Of a stretch of 49,149 nucleotides of DNA, positions 8,910 through 15,845 are shown one piece after another (the first letter of the stretch is position 1; every line of letters starts with the position of its first letter). The stretch spans positions 1 to 49,149 of the forward strand of contig JACQCA010000031.1 of NCBI GenBank assembly GCA_016201865.1, in the 5' to 3' direction. A program made the position numbers and the translations under genes. The DNA comes from Nitrospirota bacterium. Lineage in GTDB: Bacteria > Nitrospirota > Nitrospiria > JACQBZ01. The notes beneath the pieces are model-generated. The model made no database searches and was not told the origin of the DNA. It saw nothing but the letters and a program-made list of their open reading frames with translations.

Positions 8910-8937
8910 TTGACAAATATCCGATCTATGGTATCTT
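8910..8937 (+). promoter_or_regulatory. Sigma-70-type promoter of the pilus operon with overlapping palindrome
   Basis: TTGACA at 8910-8915, a 16-nt spacer, and TATCTT at 8932-8937 predict transcription from about 8944. A perfect palindrome, CTTGATAATCAAG (8935-8947), overlaps the -10 and the start point and could be a repressor operator. The riboswitch begins about 25 nt further on. Confidence 0.65.
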
Positions 8938-8967
8938 GATAATCAAGTATTCAAAACGATTTGGAAG

Positions 8968-9063
8968 CACCACCGATAAGAGCACACCACCCGAAAGGGT
9001 GGGCCGCAAAGCCGGGGGCCCTGATCTTTATAAAAGGAGGGCGGCCAGGCTGCCGAAGTGGTG
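8968..9063 (+). ncRNA. GEMM-I riboswitch, predicted c-di-GMP-binding
   Basis: CACCAC (8968-8973) pairs with GTGGTG (9058-9063) to close P1. Inside are the ACCACCC-GAAA-GGGTGGG hairpin with its GNRA loop, the invariant CGCAAAGCC (9005-9013) and the 3' half GGCCAGGCTGCCG (9043-9055). All are GEMM-I landmarks. Aligned by the GNRA loop to the Vibrio cholerae Vc2 aptamer, the nucleotide at position 20 is G (8982). In established work this favours c-di-GMP, whereas A20 variants bind cGAMP. It lies between the promoter and the first pilin, followed by a terminator. Confidence 0.88.
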
Positions 9064-9075
9064 ATGGTCGCCTTC

Positions 9076-9119
9076 AAGGCCCATGCTCTTATCATGAATA
9101 GAGATGGGCCTTTTAATTT
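9076..9119 (+). terminator. Riboswitch-controlled intrinsic terminator
   Basis: AAGGCCCAT (9076-9084) pairs with ATGGGCCTT (9104-9112). The stem is extended by CTCT/AGAG across one bulged G and followed by TTTTAATTT. Nucleotides 9084-9093 are also perfectly complementary to 8975-8984 inside the aptamer. The terminator's 5' arm therefore competes with an alternative helix that would break the aptamer, the usual layout of a transcriptional riboswitch. Confidence 0.75.
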
Positions 9120-9187
9120 GGGAAAGACAATCGATCACAAATCACCCGCAGGACAGTCGCCTGCGGGCCAAAAAAGGAGGAGAAGCA

Positions 9188-9652
9188 ATGAAAAGGACTG
9201 GAGTAATTCTTTCGAGTCTGGGAATGGTTCTGCTGTTTGCCGGCATGAGCATGGCGACAGGTTCAAATACGTTAACCGTCTCCGCGAACGTGATGGGGAC
9301 ATGCAAGTTCAGCTCGGCGAGCTCAACCTTGGGGTTCGGCGGCCTTGATCCCACGGTGGGGACGAACGTTTCGGCCACGAGCACCACGCAGTTCTGGTGC
9401 ACGAAAGGCGTTACCTTGGATGCGATCACGGCCGACAACGGCGCCCATTTCGCCGCTTCAAGAAACATGCAGGATCCCGTCAGCCTGGATCTGATCCCCT
9501 ATACGTTGTCGCTCACGAAAGACGCCAATCCAAACACGGGTCCTTTGGCTCCGAGGACTCTGACGATCAGCGGTACCGTTTTGGGAATTGATTACACGAG
9601 CAAGACGGCCGGCAACTATTCGGACACCGTGGTATTGACCATCACGCCGTAA
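9188..9652 (+). CDS. Spore coat U domain pilin, probable major subunit (archaic chaperone-usher pilus)
   Basis: 154 residues with a signal peptide (residues 1 to about 24, ending MSMA-TGS). The mature part opens with NTLTVSANVMGTCKF, contains a second cysteine in TTQFWCTKG, has LGFGGLDP, and ends in AGNYSDTVVLTITP. This is the SCPU/CsuA-B pattern. The opening strand resembles the donor strand inserted into the neighbouring subunit in archaic chaperone-usher pili. The start is fixed by AAAAAAGGAGGAG just upstream; an earlier in-frame ATG at 9104 falls in the terminator. It is first after the riboswitch and is followed by a strong hairpin, consistent with being the most abundant subunit. A CCCGCAGG/CCTGCGGG hairpin (9145-9167) lies just before its ribosome-binding site. 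Confidence 0.88.
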   Translation: MKRTGVILSSLGMVLLFAGMSMATGSNTLTVSANVMGTCKFSSASSTLGFGGLDPTVGTNVSATSTTQFWCTKGVTLDAITADNGAHFAASRNMQDPVSLDLIPYTLSLTKDANPNTGPLAPRTLTISGTVLGIDYTSKTAGNYSDTVVLTITP

Positions 9653-9741: not shown

Positions 9742-10242
9742 ATGAGACGGTCGAGAATTCAGATCTTTCAAGTCCTGCTGATCAGCATGATGCTTCTCAT
9801 CGGCCATGGGATCGTTGAATCCGCCACGGGCACCCTTACCGTAACCGCGACCGTCTTATCCAGGAATAATTGTCGATTTACTGGAATTAATGCGGCCGCC
9901 TCCACGTTGAACTTCGGAAATCTGGATCCCTCAAACCCTGTTGACATTACGGCAACGACAACCATCCGTTTTAGGTGCCGAGGAAGCTCACGGATCGCAA
10001 CATTTTTTATTTCGGATAATGACGGTTTGTACGAAACGGGACCGGGCGCCAACCGGATGAGACACACCGTTGTTCTCACGGAATACCTGCCCTACAGTCT
10101 GAATCTTAACCCCATAACGGCGTCCGTTCCAAGGAATACCAATCAGACGCTTACCATCACCGGAACCGTCCGAGGGGTGGATTACCAAAACGCCTACGTC
10201 GGGAGTTATTCAGACACCGTTATAATCACAATCGTCCCATAG
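9742..10242 (+). CDS. Spore coat U domain protein, second pilus subunit
   Basis: 166 residues with a signal peptide (MLLIGHGIVESA-TG). The mature opening GTLTVTATVLSRNNCRF, a second cysteine in TIRFRCRGSS, LNFGNLDP and the ending VGSYSDTVIITIVP match the first pilin closely in plan but not in detail. This indicates a paralogue with a minor or adaptor role. AGAGGGA stands 6 nt before the ATG. The gene is in the same operon as 9188-9652, with an 89-nt gap holding the hairpin. Confidence 0.87.
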   Translation: MRRSRIQIFQVLLISMMLLIGHGIVESATGTLTVTATVLSRNNCRFTGINAAASTLNFGNLDPSNPVDITATTTIRFRCRGSSRIATFFISDNDGLYETGPGANRMRHTVVLTEYLPYSLNLNPITASVPRNTNQTLTITGTVRGVDYQNAYVGSYSDTVIITIVP

Positions 10243-10256
10243 TCCAGATGAAGATT

Positions 10257-10285
10257 TTGCGAATTTTGCCGATCTCTGGTATACT
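10257..10285 (+). promoter_or_regulatory. Possible internal promoter ahead of chaperone and usher
   Basis: TTGCGA (10257-10262), a 17-nt spacer, then TATACT (10280-10285). It lies between the second pilin and the chaperone start at 10320. It would give assembly genes a riboswitch-independent supply. It is a sequence match only. Confidence 0.45.
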
Positions 10286-10319
10286 CGCAACGCAAGAATG
10301 GGGGCCGGGTAGAGGAGCC

Positions 10320-11093
10320 ATGAATACACAGAAGCGTCAGGATCGCCGTTGCTTCCTCAGTTTTAGCCGAGCCGTCCTGTTCGTTTTATTACTCCCCTCG
10401 ATCGTTCTCGCCGGCCAATTCAGCGTCACGCCGATCATGCTCATTTTTGAAGGCGACACCAAGAGCGGAGTCGTCAACATCTCCAACGAGGAAGACAAAA
10501 CGCTGCAGGTCCAGATGAAGGCCTTTGAATGGACGCAGAACGAGACCGGACAGGATCAGTATACCGAAACGTCGGACATCCTTTTTTTTCCGAAGATCAT
10601 GACCATTGGGAAAAAAGATCAACGTATTCTCCGGGCTGGAATCAAAGCGCCGCCAGGCGCCAAGGAAAAAACCTACCGGTTGTTCATCGAGGAAATCCCC
10701 GAGCCCAAACGGGATGCCAAAGAAACCCAGATCCAAGTGGCGATCCGGTTCGGTGTTCCGATCTTTGTCAAGCCGATTAAGGAAGAGATTCAGGGCAAAA
10801 TAGAAAGGGTCGCCCTCGGGAAGGACCAGATCCAGACCGTTGTCCGGAATACGGGCAACGCTCATTTTGTCATCCACTCCGTTACGATCAAAGGATGGGA
10901 TCGCAATGGAGCGGAAACTTTTTCCAAAGAACTGAGCGGGTGGTATCTGCTGCCCAACACGGTCCGAACCTATACAACCCCCATCACGGAAGAAGTCTGC
11001 AGGGACACGTCAAGATTTGATGTGGAGGTCAAGACAAACGGTTTTACACTGGACGACCGATTGGATGTCGATAAAACCCTGTGCCTGCCTTAG
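10320..11093 (+). CDS. Pilus assembly chaperone (PapD-like fold, archaic type)
   Basis: 257 residues from MNTQKRQDRR, with a signal peptide ending near IVLAG. Two Ig-like domains follow. The first contains GVVNISNEEDKTLQVQMKAFEW and the conserved region QRILRAGIKAPPGAKEKTYRLFIEEIP; the second starts around residue 150. It caps and folds pilin subunits in the periplasm by donor-strand complementation before delivery to the usher. The ATG at 10320 has GAGGAG 5 nt upstream. An earlier in-frame ATG at 10248 lacks a good site and would bury the signal peptide. Its 3' end overlaps the usher start by 29 nt. Confidence 0.9.
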   Translation: MNTQKRQDRRCFLSFSRAVLFVLLLPSIVLAGQFSVTPIMLIFEGDTKSGVVNISNEEDKTLQVQMKAFEWTQNETGQDQYTETSDILFFPKIMTIGKKDQRILRAGIKAPPGAKEKTYRLFIEEIPEPKRDAKETQIQVAIRFGVPIFVKPIKEEIQGKIERVALGKDQIQTVVRNTGNAHFVIHSVTIKGWDRNGAETFSKELSGWYLLPNTVRTYTTPITEEVCRDTSRFDVEVKTNGFTLDDRLDVDKTLCLP

Positions 11094-13401
11094 CCTTCTT
11101 CTTTTAGTGATTCTGAGTTTTAGCTCCATCGCCCATGGAGATCAGACCGTCATCCTCAATATCATCCTCAATTCAGAACCCGAGGGAGACTTCACTGTCC
11201 AGATGACCGACGAACATGATTTTCTCGTTCGGATCGAAGACCTCCGGCAGATGGGTTTCAGCGACCCTTCAGGGACCGTTTACGAGATCGAGGGGGAGCG
11301 ATACATCGCCCTCAGTTCCATCCGGGGAGTCGGATTCAACCTGGACGAAAAAAACCTGACACTTGAAATAACGGCCTTCCCTGCTCTTCTGAGAAAACAG
11401 ATCGTCGACTTCATGCCCGGCCGCCAGCCGAAAGTGGTTTTCACAAACGACACGGCGACCTTTTTAAATTATCGTCTGGACTATTCCGAACTCAATTCTT
11501 TCGATACTCAGCATCTGGACCTCACGAGCCAATTCGGCGCCAGTTACAACCATTTTCTCCTGCTGACCGATTCCGTCTATACCCAAACGGAGGAGACCCG
11601 TCAATATACAAGACTGATGAGCAATCTGACCTACGATCGGCGGACGGAAAAGCAACGGGCGATCCTGGGCGATTTTTTTGCACAGGCCGGCGAGCTCGGA
11701 AGCAGCCTGAATTTAGGCGGGATCAGCTTTTCGAAAAACTACCTGATCGACCCTTATTTTATTAAACATCCCCAGATCAATTATTCCGGAACCGTCTCCC
11801 TTCCGACCGAACTGGACGTATCTCTCGATGGGGTGACGATCCGACGCGAGCGGTTGTCGCCCGGCGAGTTCCGTCTGCAGAACATCTCGACGCATACCGG
11901 AGGAGGCCTGCTGGAAATCGTCCTGAAAGATCCGTTCGGCAAAGAAGAGCGAATCCGATATCCCTTTTATCTAACCGATACGCTTCTTAAAAGCGGCCTC
12001 CATGATTACAGCTATAATCTGGGTTTCCTGCGCGAAAAGTTCGGTGAAGAAAGTTTTAAGTACGGCGATCTGACTTTTTCGGCCTTTCACCGATACGGAT
12101 GGAACGACTCCGTCACGGTCGGTTTTAATCTCGAGGCCTCAAAAGGACTATACAACGGAGGCCCGTCGACCTCGGCCCTCCTGATGAACAATTGGGGCGT
12201 CGTCGTATTAACGCTGGCGGCCAGCCGCGACTCGGAAAACCGGATCGGCCGCGCCCTCTCATTCAACTATGGCTATCAAGGAAAAATAATAAACGGGCAT
12301 CTGCGGGTTCAAGGGTTTACGGAAAACTACGCGCGCTTAATCGAAGTAACGACGACGGATAAGACAAAGTACGAGACGGCCGTCGGAGTCGGTTATGGCA
12401 CGAAGGGGTCGGGTTTTATGACGCTGGACTACGCGACGACAATCCAATACATCGGGAAGGGGCAACGGACCGTCGCAGCGACCTATTCCAGGGTCTTGAC
12501 GCAACGGTCCACCGCGCTGATCACGCTCAAGCGGACGGCGGATGAAGACTCCGCTTACGAAATTATGGTATACTTCCAATATTATCCCGGGAAAGACACG
12601 ACCCTATCGTCCCGTTACGAGAAAAGCAAGGGGGAGCAATCGGGAACGGTCCAGGTCCAGAAAAATCCCCCTGTGGGAGAGGGCTTCGGAGGCCGAATGC
12701 TGCTGGAACGTTCCGTCACGGATATTGAAACGATCGATGCCATGGACGCTTTTGGACAGTATAATCTCAAGTACGGCATTTATGCCGTCGAATATCGTCA
12801 ATCCCAAGGGAATCGCTTTACCGAGGCGTCGGCTTCCGGAGGCATCGCCTACCTCGGAAGGACCCTCGGATTGAGCCGGCCGATCACGGACGGCTTCGCC
12901 CTGGTGCAAGTGGATGATCTTCATGGGGTGCGCGTTTATTACAACAACCAGGAAGTCGGGAGGACAGGCTCTTCCGGCAAGCTGCTCATTCCCGGCCTGA
13001 GTTCGTATTACGACAATCAGATCTCCATCAATGAACACGACATCCCGATCGATCGTTCGATCACGGAGGTGGAGAAGATCATCTCCCCGCCTCTCCGAGG
13101 CGGCGCCTACGTGCCGTTTCAAGCAAAAACGTTTCAGGGGATTACGGGAAAGATCAAAATTTTTAAGGACGGCAAGTTCAAGCCTGTGGAATTTTACGAG
13201 ATCAAGATGACTCAGGATGAAACGACGATCACCTTTCCAACCGGAAAAGAGGGCGAATTTTATATCGAAGATGCGCCGCCGGGGATCTACAAGGCCTCCT
13301 TTGAATCCAAGGAAGAGAAATGCAGTTTCGATCTTGAGATACCGGTTTCTAAAGAATCCTTGTTGGATCTGGGAGATATCCTCTGTGAAACGCCTCATTA
13401 A
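11065..13401 (+). CDS. Outer-membrane fimbrial usher
   Basis: 778 residues with a signal peptide (LLLLVILSFSSIAHG). An N-terminal domain (IILNSEPEGDFTVQMTDEHDFLVRIEDLRQMGF) is followed by a long beta-barrel region, including YPFYLTDTLLKSGLHDYSYNLGFLREKFG, a hallmark of FimD/PapC/CsuD ushers. The C-terminal domain is around residues 640-778. It secretes and polymerises chaperone-bound subunits. The ATG at 11065 lies inside the chaperone 3' end and has only a weak ribosome-binding site, so coupling is likely. The protein is slightly short for classical ushers but normal for archaic ones. Confidence 0.93.
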   Translation: MSIKPCACLSLLLLVILSFSSIAHGDQTVILNIILNSEPEGDFTVQMTDEHDFLVRIEDLRQMGFSDPSGTVYEIEGERYIALSSIRGVGFNLDEKNLTLEITAFPALLRKQIVDFMPGRQPKVVFTNDTATFLNYRLDYSELNSFDTQHLDLTSQFGASYNHFLLLTDSVYTQTEETRQYTRLMSNLTYDRRTEKQRAILGDFFAQAGELGSSLNLGGISFSKNYLIDPYFIKHPQINYSGTVSLPTELDVSLDGVTIRRERLSPGEFRLQNISTHTGGGLLEIVLKDPFGKEERIRYPFYLTDTLLKSGLHDYSYNLGFLREKFGEESFKYGDLTFSAFHRYGWNDSVTVGFNLEASKGLYNGGPSTSALLMNNWGVVVLTLAASRDSENRIGRALSFNYGYQGKIINGHLRVQGFTENYARLIEVTTTDKTKYETAVGVGYGTKGSGFMTLDYATTIQYIGKGQRTVAATYSRVLTQRSTALITLKRTADEDSAYEIMVYFQYYPGKDTTLSSRYEKSKGEQSGTVQVQKNPPVGEGFGGRMLLERSVTDIETIDAMDAFGQYNLKYGIYAVEYRQSQGNRFTEASASGGIAYLGRTLGLSRPITDGFALVQVDDLHGVRVYYNNQEVGRTGSSGKLLIPGLSSYYDNQISINEHDIPIDRSITEVEKIISPPLRGGAYVPFQAKTFQGITGKIKIFKDGKFKPVEFYEIKMTQDETTITFPTGKEGEFYIEDAPPGIYKASFESKEEKCSFDLEIPVSKESLLDLGDILCETPH

Positions 13402-13846
13402 ATACGGAATTTTTTCTGTCTTGTTTTTTTATTTGCCGACACAGGCCGAGGCCGCGTGCACGCTTACGACCACGGCCGTCAATTTCGGAAATTACAATGT
13501 ATTTTCCCCTCTCGCCTTGAATTCCACGGGAAGCGTCACGGTCAGTTGCAGCGCGGGCTCGTCGCAGAACATGACCATCTCGATCGGCCCCAGTCCCAAC
13601 TCCGGAGGATTTATCCCACGAAAGATGAAACATGCGACCTTGCCCGACATGCTGTCCTATAATGTTTATATTAATGCGGCCGGAACCTCCGTCTGGGGAA
13701 ACGGAACCGGTGGAACGAGCACGGTATTTCTCAATAGAGTAAGAAGGAGACCGCAGACCGTAACCGTCTACGGAATCATCCCTCCATTACAAAACGTCAC
13801 GATCGGTTCTTACAGCGACCTTTTGACCGTCACGTTCACTCCGTGA
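13385..13846 (+). CDS. Spore coat U domain protein, third subunit (likely tip), GTG start
   Basis: 153 residues from GTG at 13385, with GGGAG about 9 nt upstream. The start overlaps the usher stop by 17 nt. The signal peptide (IFSVLFFYLPTQAEA) is followed immediately by ACTLTTTAVNFGNYNVF and VTVSCSAGSS, with two cysteines, and the protein ends IGSYSDLLTVTFTP. Unlike the other two SCPU proteins it has no GTLTV strand before the first cysteine. A subunit without a donor strand extension is expected at the pilus tip, so a tip-adhesin role is inferred from this absence and from its position after the usher. Confidence 0.85.
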   Translation: MKRLIKYGIFSVLFFYLPTQAEAACTLTTTAVNFGNYNVFSPLALNSTGSVTVSCSAGSSQNMTISIGPSPNSGGFIPRKMKHATLPDMLSYNVYINAAGTSVWGNGTGGTSTVFLNRVRRRPQTVTVYGIIPPLQNVTIGSYSDLLTVTFTP

Positions 13847-13897: not shown

Positions 13898-15193
13898 ATG
13901 CTCAAAGTACTTTTGGCAATTCCTAATCCGGACGACGCGGTGACATCCGCGATAAAACACCAATCGGTCGAGATGCTTCCGGAAAACTCATCCCTCCAAG
14001 AGCTGATGACGAAAGGCAGTTACGACCTGATCCTGGTGGAGGGCGGGCTGGACCTGTTATCGTCCTTGAAGGGCGCGGACCCGCGAGCCGAAGTGATTCT
14101 TTTCGGGCATGACGATCACGACTCGATCGAAGCCGCCAAGCAGGGCGCCGCGGCCCATTTCAAATTCCCGGTCGAGACCGAGCTTCTGCGGGATGTCGTC
14201 AACAAAATCGATGAGCTGATCGAGATCCGGAAGGAAACCGGGCAGCTCGAAAAACTACTGACCGACAAATACAACTTCTGCGGCGTCGTCTCCCGAAATC
14301 CCCTGATGCTGGATATCTTTTCCCTGATCCGCCGCATCGCTCCTTACTTTAAGACCGTCACGATCGCGGGCGAAACCGGATCCGGAAAAGAGGTCCTGGC
14401 AAAAGCGTTGCACGCCTCCAGCCCTTTGGCCCGGCAGCCCTTTTTGGTTTGCAACTGCGGCGCCCTGGTCGAGAGCCTGATCGAATCGGAATTGTTCGGG
14501 CATCTGAAGGGCGCTTTTACCGGAGCCGACCGGGACAAGATCGGACTGTTCGAGGCCGCCGGCGAAGGAACCTTATTCTTGGATGAAATCGGCGAACTCC
14601 CGTTCTCGTTTCAGCCCCATTTATTGAGGGTCCTTCAGAACGGAGAATTCCGTCGGCTGGGCGGCAACAAACCTTCCCGAGCCCGATGCCGGATCATCGC
14701 CGCCACCAACCGAAATCTTGAGCAAGCGGTTAAAGAAGGCCGTTTCAGAGAGGATCTGTATTTCAGGATCACCCCGCTGGTGGTCAAGGTCCCGGCCCTC
14801 CGCGATCGAAAGGACGATATTCCACTGCTGTATCGGGTCATTCTGGAGAAGTTTCGCGAGAGGACCGGGAAGAAGGTGTCCGGAGTTTCACGGCCGGCCC
14901 AGAGCATTCTAATGGCCTATGACTGGCCGGGCAATGTGAGAGAACTCGAAAATGTGTTGGAACAAGCCGCCATGCTGACGAACGAATCCTTCATCCGCGT
15001 TGATGACCTGCCGAGCCGCCTTAAAACCTCGCATGAAGAACCGCCTGCGCCCATGACTCTTGCCGATATCGAGAAAAAACATATCGAGGCCGTCCTTCAA
15101 CAGCATGCCGGAAACAGGACGAAAGCTTCAAAAATCTTGGGAGTAAGCCGACGCGCACTGCTCAGAAAGATTGAAAAATTCGGCATTAAATAG
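13898..15193 (+). CDS. Sigma-54-dependent transcriptional activator with degenerate receiver domain
   Basis: 431 residues in the NtrC layout. Residues 1-110 form a receiver-like domain, about 130-365 the AAA+ domain, and 388-431 a Fis-type helix-turn-helix ending the protein. The AAA+ domain has Walker A GETGSGKE (158-165), the sigma-54 contact loop GAFTGA (205-210) and Walker B LFLDE (226-230), so it should remodel RNA polymerase-sigma-54. In the receiver the phospho-acceptor aspartate position reads YDLILVEGG, with Glu48, and the usual Lys-Pro pair appears as KFP (89-91). Phosphorylation control is therefore doubtful; a cognate histidine kinase is also absent. AGGAG stands 6 nt before the ATG. 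The likely target is the sigma-54-type promoter at 15333. Confidence 0.93.
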   Translation: MLKVLLAIPNPDDAVTSAIKHQSVEMLPENSSLQELMTKGSYDLILVEGGLDLLSSLKGADPRAEVILFGHDDHDSIEAAKQGAAAHFKFPVETELLRDVVNKIDELIEIRKETGQLEKLLTDKYNFCGVVSRNPLMLDIFSLIRRIAPYFKTVTIAGETGSGKEVLAKALHASSPLARQPFLVCNCGALVESLIESELFGHLKGAFTGADRDKIGLFEAAGEGTLFLDEIGELPFSFQPHLLRVLQNGEFRRLGGNKPSRARCRIIAATNRNLEQAVKEGRFREDLYFRITPLVVKVPALRDRKDDIPLLYRVILEKFRERTGKKVSGVSRPAQSILMAYDWPGNVRELENVLEQAAMLTNESFIRVDDLPSRLKTSHEEPPAPMTLADIEKKHIEAVLQQHAGNRTKASKILGVSRRALLRKIEKFGIK

Positions 15194-15374: not shown

Positions 15375-15845
15375 ATGAAGATGATAAAGACAGCGACAAC
15401 CGGGATGATCACGATGGCCATGATCATTTTTCTTGGGTCAACTGGTTTTGCAGCAGGCAATAAAGGAACATTAACCGTCTCAGCTACGGTTCTGGGCAAA
15501 CTTTCACAGACGACGGTGCGGCAGGAAAAGATGCTGACCATCACCTCAGAGAGCATCACCCGGGGATATGTGGATATACCGGCCGGCACGACTCTTCGGG
15601 TCAAGAGCAATGATAAGAACGGGTATCTTCTGAACTTTTATATTGATGGGATGCTGGTCAAAGAAGCCCAAGTCAGCGTGAACGGTAGACGGGTCTCCGT
15701 CCCGTCCGGTCTCGGACTGATCCATCAACCATTTCCCGGCATTGCCGGAGAAACGCTCCAAATCACCTACCGATTATTTCTCTCGCCCGGAATGAAACCG
15801 GGCAGCTATCAATGGCCCGTTGCTGTTTCGGCCTCACTCCTGTAA
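15375..15845 (+). CDS. Secreted pilin-like protein, cysteine-free SCPU relative
   Basis: 156 residues with a signal peptide (residues 1 to about 27, ending GFAAG). The mature part begins KGTLTVSATVLGKLSQ, nearly identical in plan to the N-terminal strands of the pilins at 9188 and 9742. It ends MKPGSYQWPVAVSASLL, a counterpart of their GxYxDxVxxT ending. It has no cysteine, whereas the pilins carry a pair, and lacks the LxFGxLDP motif. A diverged pilus subunit or anchor served by the same usher is the best inference. AGGAGG lies 8 nt before the ATG and directly behind the predicted sigma-54 start site. Confidence 0.75.
   Translation: MKMIKTATTGMITMAMIIFLGSTGFAAGNKGTLTVSATVLGKLSQTTVRQEKMLTITSESITRGYVDIPAGTTLRVKSNDKNGYLLNFYIDGMLVKEAQVSVNGRRVSVPSGLGLIHQPFPGIAGETLQITYRLFLSPGMKPGSYQWPVAVSASLL

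Follow-up and report, generated by a model that had tools for sequence, protein, structure and literature searches.

A GEMM-I leader predicted to switch off an archaic chaperone-usher pilus operon in a Nitrospirota bacterium, with 3',3'-cGAMP as the probable ligand

A riboswitch aptamer of the GEMM-I family stands directly ahead of a pilus operon in the 49,149-nucleotide stretch of Nitrospirota DNA analysed here (contig JACQCA010000031.1, hereafter the window), and the locus thus poses two questions: which cyclic dinucleotide the leader would sense, and whether that ligand would turn the pilus on or off. The operon lies on the forward strand and opens with a pilin bearing an SCPU domain (9188–9652; PF05229, 4e-12), followed by a second SCPU pilin (9742–10242; PF05229, 2.5e-9), a periplasmic chaperone with a PapD N domain (10248–11093; PF00345, 9e-17 on 10314–11093), an outer-membrane usher (11017–13401; PF00577, 2.7e-21 on 11065–13401) and a third SCPU protein (13364–13846; PF05229, 1.9e-27) that is possibly the tip subunit. 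The presence of SCPU pilins, a PapD-type chaperone and an usher in one operon agrees with the archaic chaperone-usher pilus, headed by a pilin gene, that an earlier note had read from the letters of this DNA. A sigma-54 activator adjoins the operon on the same strand (13898–15193; PF00158, 3.7e-63), and beside it lies a small secreted protein without a Pfam match (15375–15845).

The leader begins with a promoter-like site, TTGACA-16-TATCTT at 8910–8937 of the forward strand, which scores 10 of 12 in a consensus scan and carries a TG before the second hexamer; two sites scoring thus were found where 0.8 are expected by chance, so that the promoter proposed earlier stands, as weak evidence when taken on its own. 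The GEMM-I aptamer itself is equally as proposed, matching RF01051 at 8971–9057 on the forward strand over the complete model (positions 1–87) with 63.7 bits, above the curated gathering score of 35. It is the single GEMM-I aptamer that Rfam returns for the whole window, the only other match being an ordinary TPP riboswitch on the minus strand (22252–22149, 76 bits) before a ThiC-like ORF. Helix P1 is formed by six standard pairs between CACCAC at 8968–8973 and GTGGTG at 9058–9063, and the same CACC...GTGG aptamer ends are present at loci L027, L028 and L036. The 5' core of the aptamer contains GATAAGAGCA (8975–8984), within which A8981 occupies the specificity position, a base that the earlier note overlooked. 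In the Rfam alignment this is model position 11, where the window aptamer carries A in place of G, the mark of GEMM-Ib, and which we take to be nucleotide 20 of Vc2 from that alignment and a count along the Vc2 sequence.

Downstream of the aptamer, minimum free energy (MFE) folding predicts an intrinsic terminator hairpin at 9076–9112 of the forward strand, composed of a 9-bp base (9076–9084/9104–9112), a bulged G9085, a 4-bp upper stem (9086–9089/9100–9103) and a loop at 9090–9099, and followed by a U-rich tail, UUUUAAUUU, whose U tract is interrupted, a feature that speaks against the reading favoured below. The terminator claimed previously is thus present, with a stem slightly longer than the 8-bp base then described. 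The hairpin is absent from the listing of a generic terminator scan of the window, which covered loops of 3–8 nucleotides and at least five T in eight; the loop here has 10 nucleotides and the T tract is broken. A second hairpin on the forward strand, without a T tail, lies directly 5' of the ribosome-binding site (9144–9168) and is possibly a 5' stabiliser; a similar one is found in genome G001.

The 10 nucleotides of GATAAGAGCA are the exact complement of TGCTCTTATC at 9084–9093 (forward strand), a stretch shared between the loop of the terminator and the upper part of its 5' arm; the match lies beyond chance in shuffles. Specifically, when the aptamer was compared with the 130 nucleotides that follow it, dinucleotide shuffles gave an exact 10-nucleotide complement in 1.1% of cases, and in 0 of 5000 when the comparison was limited to the conserved 5' segment of the aptamer. 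This long-range helix cannot form together with the ligand-bound aptamer, as had been argued before, and the aptamer, P1 and the terminator form a compatible fold. By anatomy and computed folds, the leader combines an aptamer-compatible terminator with an exclusive antiterminator, the arrangement of an OFF switch.

The earlier note had proposed a search for the same platform in related genomes, and had named absence of covariation as grounds for refuting its reading; the platform was found in several Nitrospirota families, and covariation was seen at nucleotides 19 and 20. Among 150 GEMM-I aptamers sampled from the class Nitrospiria, to which the organism belongs, the complementarity between the aptamer 5' segment and the following leader reached p ≤0.01 in 15 of 147 cases (1.5 expected) and p ≤0.05 in 27 of 147 (7 expected), some of these being artefacts of tandem aptamers. 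In the genuine group, about 16–31 nucleotides separate the aptamer from the start of the complement, which falls within a hairpin, either in its loop or in the upper part of its 5' arm; most of these hairpins are followed by a T tail, which L103 lacks. This group comprises the window and G001 (f1), two loci of G008 (f3), G012 (f7), and G017, G021 and G035 (f8), and terminators that otherwise differ in sequence also contain the helix (L028, L036 and L113), which takes up nearly the whole terminator loop at L036. In Desulfuromonas L055 the complement lies just 5' of the terminator, outside the hairpin. Nucleotides 19–20 read GA, AA, AG or GG across loci and the partner strand changes accordingly, so that in 14 distinct rows the pairs at both positions vary on both sides; 85.7% of helix cells are paired, versus 40–54% for slid helices, and the covariation score was matched in 3 of 500 shuffles, a signal that consists of two base pairs in loci partly selected for complementarity. 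In addition, aptamer segments pair better with their own platforms than with swapped ones (mean −8.8 versus −8.0 kcal/mol; sd 0.19; 0 of 5000).

Several candidates were set aside. The CTTTG-type loci L152, L149, L190 and L199 mostly owe their signal to a tandem aptamer next to them, whose TTGCTCAGAGCAA is palindromic, or to a site far downstream, and L073, L116 and L104, despite low p values, lack either the helix-in-terminator-loop layout or the predicted transient helix. A phylum-wide search for the exact helix pattern gave three matches, two of them already known; the third, from a family of genomes that lacks the synthase considered below, is likely due to chance. No consistent platform was found on the GATAA aptamers of Acidobacteriota.

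Partial-transcript folding indicates how the helix could act. In transcripts ending at 9090–9108 the long-range helix has a probability of 0.99–1.0 and thus precedes terminator closure; when the terminator arm has emerged this value drops to near zero, and from 9111 the terminator wins at equilibrium. In the ligand-free fold at 9105, computed for the window, the terminator base 9078–9082 is predicted to pair with GGGCC of aptamer P3 (9016–9020, forward strand), so that hardly any of the terminator's 5' arm remains free; the worry voiced previously, that the base of the terminator could still form, is thereby eased for the window, base formation becoming less likely rather than impossible. The MFE folds of the leader and of partial transcripts further contain an anti-aptamer hairpin at 9037–9075 of the forward strand, in which 9039–9047 pairs with 9065–9073 and which would open P3 and P1 when ligand is absent. 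At 9112 the finished terminator is more stable than the long-range fold (nearest-neighbour energies of −70.6 versus −65.4), and at 9105 the apo fold is favoured by 15 kcal/mol over the bare fold of aptamer plus P1. The switch must therefore be kinetic, and must rely on the ligand and on tertiary contacts that are absent from the model.

Mechanistically, we suggest that in the ligand-free leader 8975–8984 would remain free during transcription and capture 9084–9093 on its exit from the polymerase, before the 3' arm of the terminator exists. The ligand-free fold would also hold the terminator base through 9016–9020, hence delaying the terminator and allowing RNA polymerase to read through into the pilus operon. 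Binding of ligand would instead lock 8975–8984 into the aptamer, by way of P1, P2, P3 and the pocket, such that the terminator could fold unopposed and the pilus would be off. The computed barriers to the terminator support this direction: across 12 homologues they amount to 11.7–20.8 kcal/mol for the ligand-free and 0–10.4 kcal/mol for the ligand-locked state, the ligand-free value being higher in 12 of 12, where all values are findpath upper bounds from nearest-neighbour energies without ligand, Mg or tertiary terms and the ligand-locked state is modelled as the platform alone. For the window they are 16.7 and 5.5 kcal/mol, and the smallest difference is 7.5 (L028). Given the recurrence of the helix with covariation and these folding computations, the OFF mechanism put forward earlier gains support, and we consider it likely, on modelled energies, that the ligand turns the pilus off.

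The full-leader MFE, which combines the anti-aptamer hairpin with the terminator, is also the basis on which the opposite sign could be argued. In a cGAMP ON switch this global energy minimum would be the ligand-free state and the ligand would rescue read-through, as in G. sulfurreducens, where the reported GEMM-Ib-controlled genes all fall in the gacA synthase mutant and are thus ON (PMC6456294). We judge this improbable for the window: its terminator is separate from the aptamer and P1, and the two can coexist, whereas the leaders of ON type place the 5' arm of their terminator within the 3' end of the aptamer; the conserved long-range complementarity would be left unexplained, and it is the ligand-locked platform that presents the lower barrier to the terminator. 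The greater stability of the finished terminator would also suit a reading in which the complementarity is real but plays its part within the terminated structure, perhaps as a contact to the loop that hardly affects gene expression, so that the switch would be weak or non-functional, and on geometry alone the terminator base could close around the helix as a pseudoknot. To this we assign only a slight probability, as the helix occupies upper-stem nucleotides of the window terminator and is conserved across families, the apo fold of the window holds the terminator base too, and at L036 a helix spanning nearly the whole loop would be hard to form around a closed stem.

Returning to the OFF reading, the two leader designs appear to follow the 5' segment of the aptamer. 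Among A-type aptamers of the CTTTG kind, 30 of 34 show the ON arrangement, in which the 5' arm of the terminator lies within the aptamer 3' end, and none of the 34 carries the long-range helix in a hand-listed classification. The GATAA kind has the long-range OFF-type helix in 12 of 16, a set hand-listed after inspection, and the ON arrangement in 0 of 16. An automatic helix criterion gives 11 of 16 GATAA-type versus 2 of 34 CTTTG-type A aptamers, with L073 meeting this criterion although it is excluded from the helix group. Within the organism's own genome, which has ON-type relatives (L004–L006), the ON type stands before multiheme cytochromes, L004 and L005 preceding ORFs with 12 and 7–8 CxxCH motifs, and the OFF type stands before the pilus. 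Elsewhere, GATAA helix platforms precede five SLT transglycosylases, an HDOD protein and a cytochrome c, and one with G at nucleotide 20 precedes a PilZ protein. We note that a further A-type aptamer of this genome with GATAAGAGCA (L008, G000:C71:9187–9265) lies right against the start codon of an ORF that matches no Pfam family, with no terminator immediately 3' of the aptamer; control here is possibly translational.

The identity of the ligand is addressed by the specificity base and by the enzymes of the genome. Seventeen GGDEF matches were found, many of them canonical, and a 377-residue GAF-GGDEF protein on contig C40 combines Ser at the GHxxG[D/S] position (GHLMGS) with RYGGDEF, the D included, which is the Hypr signature. 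Its top PDB match is 6d9m (1.3e-49; next chain 1.5e-36), which, going by the entry title, we take to be the Geobacter Hypr GGDEF fusion. Strong orthologues of the C40 enzyme occur in families f1, f3, f5, f6, f7, f8, f9 and f14, that of G019 (f5) being seen solely as a fragment at a contig end, and were not found in families f2 and f12; Ser is conserved in 15 of 15 orthologues read, a set outside which those of f6 and f14 fall. A-type aptamers make up 56 of 114 in enzyme-bearing families versus 3 of 36 in families without the enzyme, a co-occurrence across the class with a Fisher p of 5e-6, uncorrected for phylogeny. The genome itself has nine RF01051 matches, and among the eight read, A is present in six (L002–L006 and L008) and G in two (L001 and L007). 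Two of these, L001 (G000:C62) and L002 (G000:C18), have near-identical aptamers and terminators that differ in G versus A at the specificity base and precede two different predicted secreted proteins, forming a natural pair for a ligand switch.

Published work bears on this base. When G was replaced by A at the position contacting the ligand, in-line probing showed that binding moved toward c-AMP-GMP (PMC9481103), and a GEMM-I aptamer with G20A serves as a c-AMP-GMP sensor (PMC11352751); A at nucleotide 20 confers a preference for cGAMP that is not always exclusive, the omcST aptamer sensing both dinucleotides (PMC6456294). Three observations, namely A at nucleotide 20, the presence of a Hypr-type enzyme and the tendency of A aptamers and this enzyme to occur together across the class, point to 3',3'-cGAMP rather than c-di-GMP as the ligand of the window aptamer, an assignment from sequence that we hold with good confidence and that departs from the c-di-GMP named in the earlier note. 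The same three observations weigh against an OFF switch whose physiological ligand is c-di-GMP, or both dinucleotides, which we think unlikely, although the aptamer is an RF01051 member, A-at-20 aptamers can keep c-di-GMP binding (PMC6456294), the genome holds many canonical GGDEF genes, and the same platform is built on aptamers with G at nucleotide 20 at L113 (G021) and at the Omnitrophota loci L051 and L068. This c-di-GMP reading also draws on related pilus operons. SCPU proteins are present in 9 of 197 sampled genomes, and the first SCPU gene lies directly 3' of a GEMM-I aptamer in all five SCPU genomes outside family f2; three of these five aptamers, all in family f8, carry G at nucleotide 20, so that ligand or specificity would differ among lineages.

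These three f8 aptamers (L139, L148 and L150, in G021, G017 and G029) have different terminators, and at L139 and L148 a short loop complement of TGGCT with AGTCG is possible but weak. G001 retains the leader without the genes for pilin, chaperone and usher; what follows the leader there is a truncated sigma-54 activator ORF (L233, G001:C61:80000–90751), an arrangement that could be due to a genuine deletion or an assembly effect, and a similar small secreted protein is kept despite the loss of the pilus genes. In G008 (C7), the SCPU pilin behind a homologous leader is an 88-residue fragment closed by a stop codon (L234:260–523), and an ORF resembling a transposase lies about 1.4 kb beyond it. 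A search of genome contigs for usher proteins yielded zero confirmed relatives.

The closest known counterpart to the proposed OFF switch is Cd1, the c-di-GMP-I riboswitch of the Clostridioides difficile flagellar operon, which likewise pairs a GEMM-I aptamer with a separate, aptamer-compatible terminator, is OFF with ligand, and has a ligand-free antiterminator that destroys the pocket (PMC9262584). Cd1 responds to c-di-GMP, however, and builds its antiterminator from the aptamer 3' strand (C87 and G86 with G147 and C148) (PMC9262584); the window instead uses the 5' core 8975–8984, including the specificity base, against the terminator loop and upper arm, together with the P3 5' strand 9016–9020. 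The Geobacter GEMM-Ib switches share with the window aptamer A at the specificity position, a Hypr-type GGDEF gene in the genome and a link to surface-structure genes (PMC9262584, PMC6456294), but they are ON, and in the cGAMP ON switch pilM aptamer and terminator are mutually exclusive (PMC9262584), unlike the separate terminator and opposite predicted sign of the window. With cGAMP as ligand, the contrast to the common c-di-GMP rule drawn earlier becomes one to the Geobacter GEMM-Ib-controlled genes (PMC6456294). The Csu pili of Acinetobacter are archaic chaperone-usher pili also linked to cyclic dinucleotide signalling, being promoted by high c-di-GMP in a paper that mentions no riboswitch (PMC10721868), whereas an RNA switch in the leader and repression are predicted here. 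In the literature searched, from which most subscription papers were out of reach, we found neither an OFF-type GEMM-Ib nor a GEMM ahead of an archaic chaperone-usher operon, and no mention of Nitrospirota in the papers found on cGAMP, Hypr, GGDEF or GEMM, whose coverage is incomplete.

Taken together, we favour, at somewhat better than even odds, a leader that would act as a transcriptional OFF switch, in which a GEMM-Ib-type aptamer responds to 3',3'-cGAMP and the antiterminator is made from the pocket strand. Which ligand is bound, how efficiently transcription terminates and which sign the switch has in vivo are what we infer, ligand and sign from sequence and folding energies. More tentatively, and at a little under an even chance, Nitrospirota with Hypr/cGAMP signalling may run two opposite riboswitch sets from one signal in one cell; within that reading, and with the same reserve, the CTTTG type would be ON, for multiheme cytochromes, and the GATAAGAGCA type OFF, for the archaic pilus and, in relatives, lytic transglycosylases. 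As the antiterminator of the OFF set would be built from the pocket strand, the specificity base would also have to covary with the terminator loop. An OFF-type GEMM-Ib alongside the ON type in one genome would, if true, contrast with the reported genes of G. sulfurreducens, all of which are ON (PMC6456294), and the platform offers a simple sequence rule, with the aptamer 5' segment predicting ON or OFF. Hypr/cGAMP signalling would then extend to Nitrospirota, where one cyclic dinucleotide would promote electron-transfer cytochromes and shut off attachment pili.
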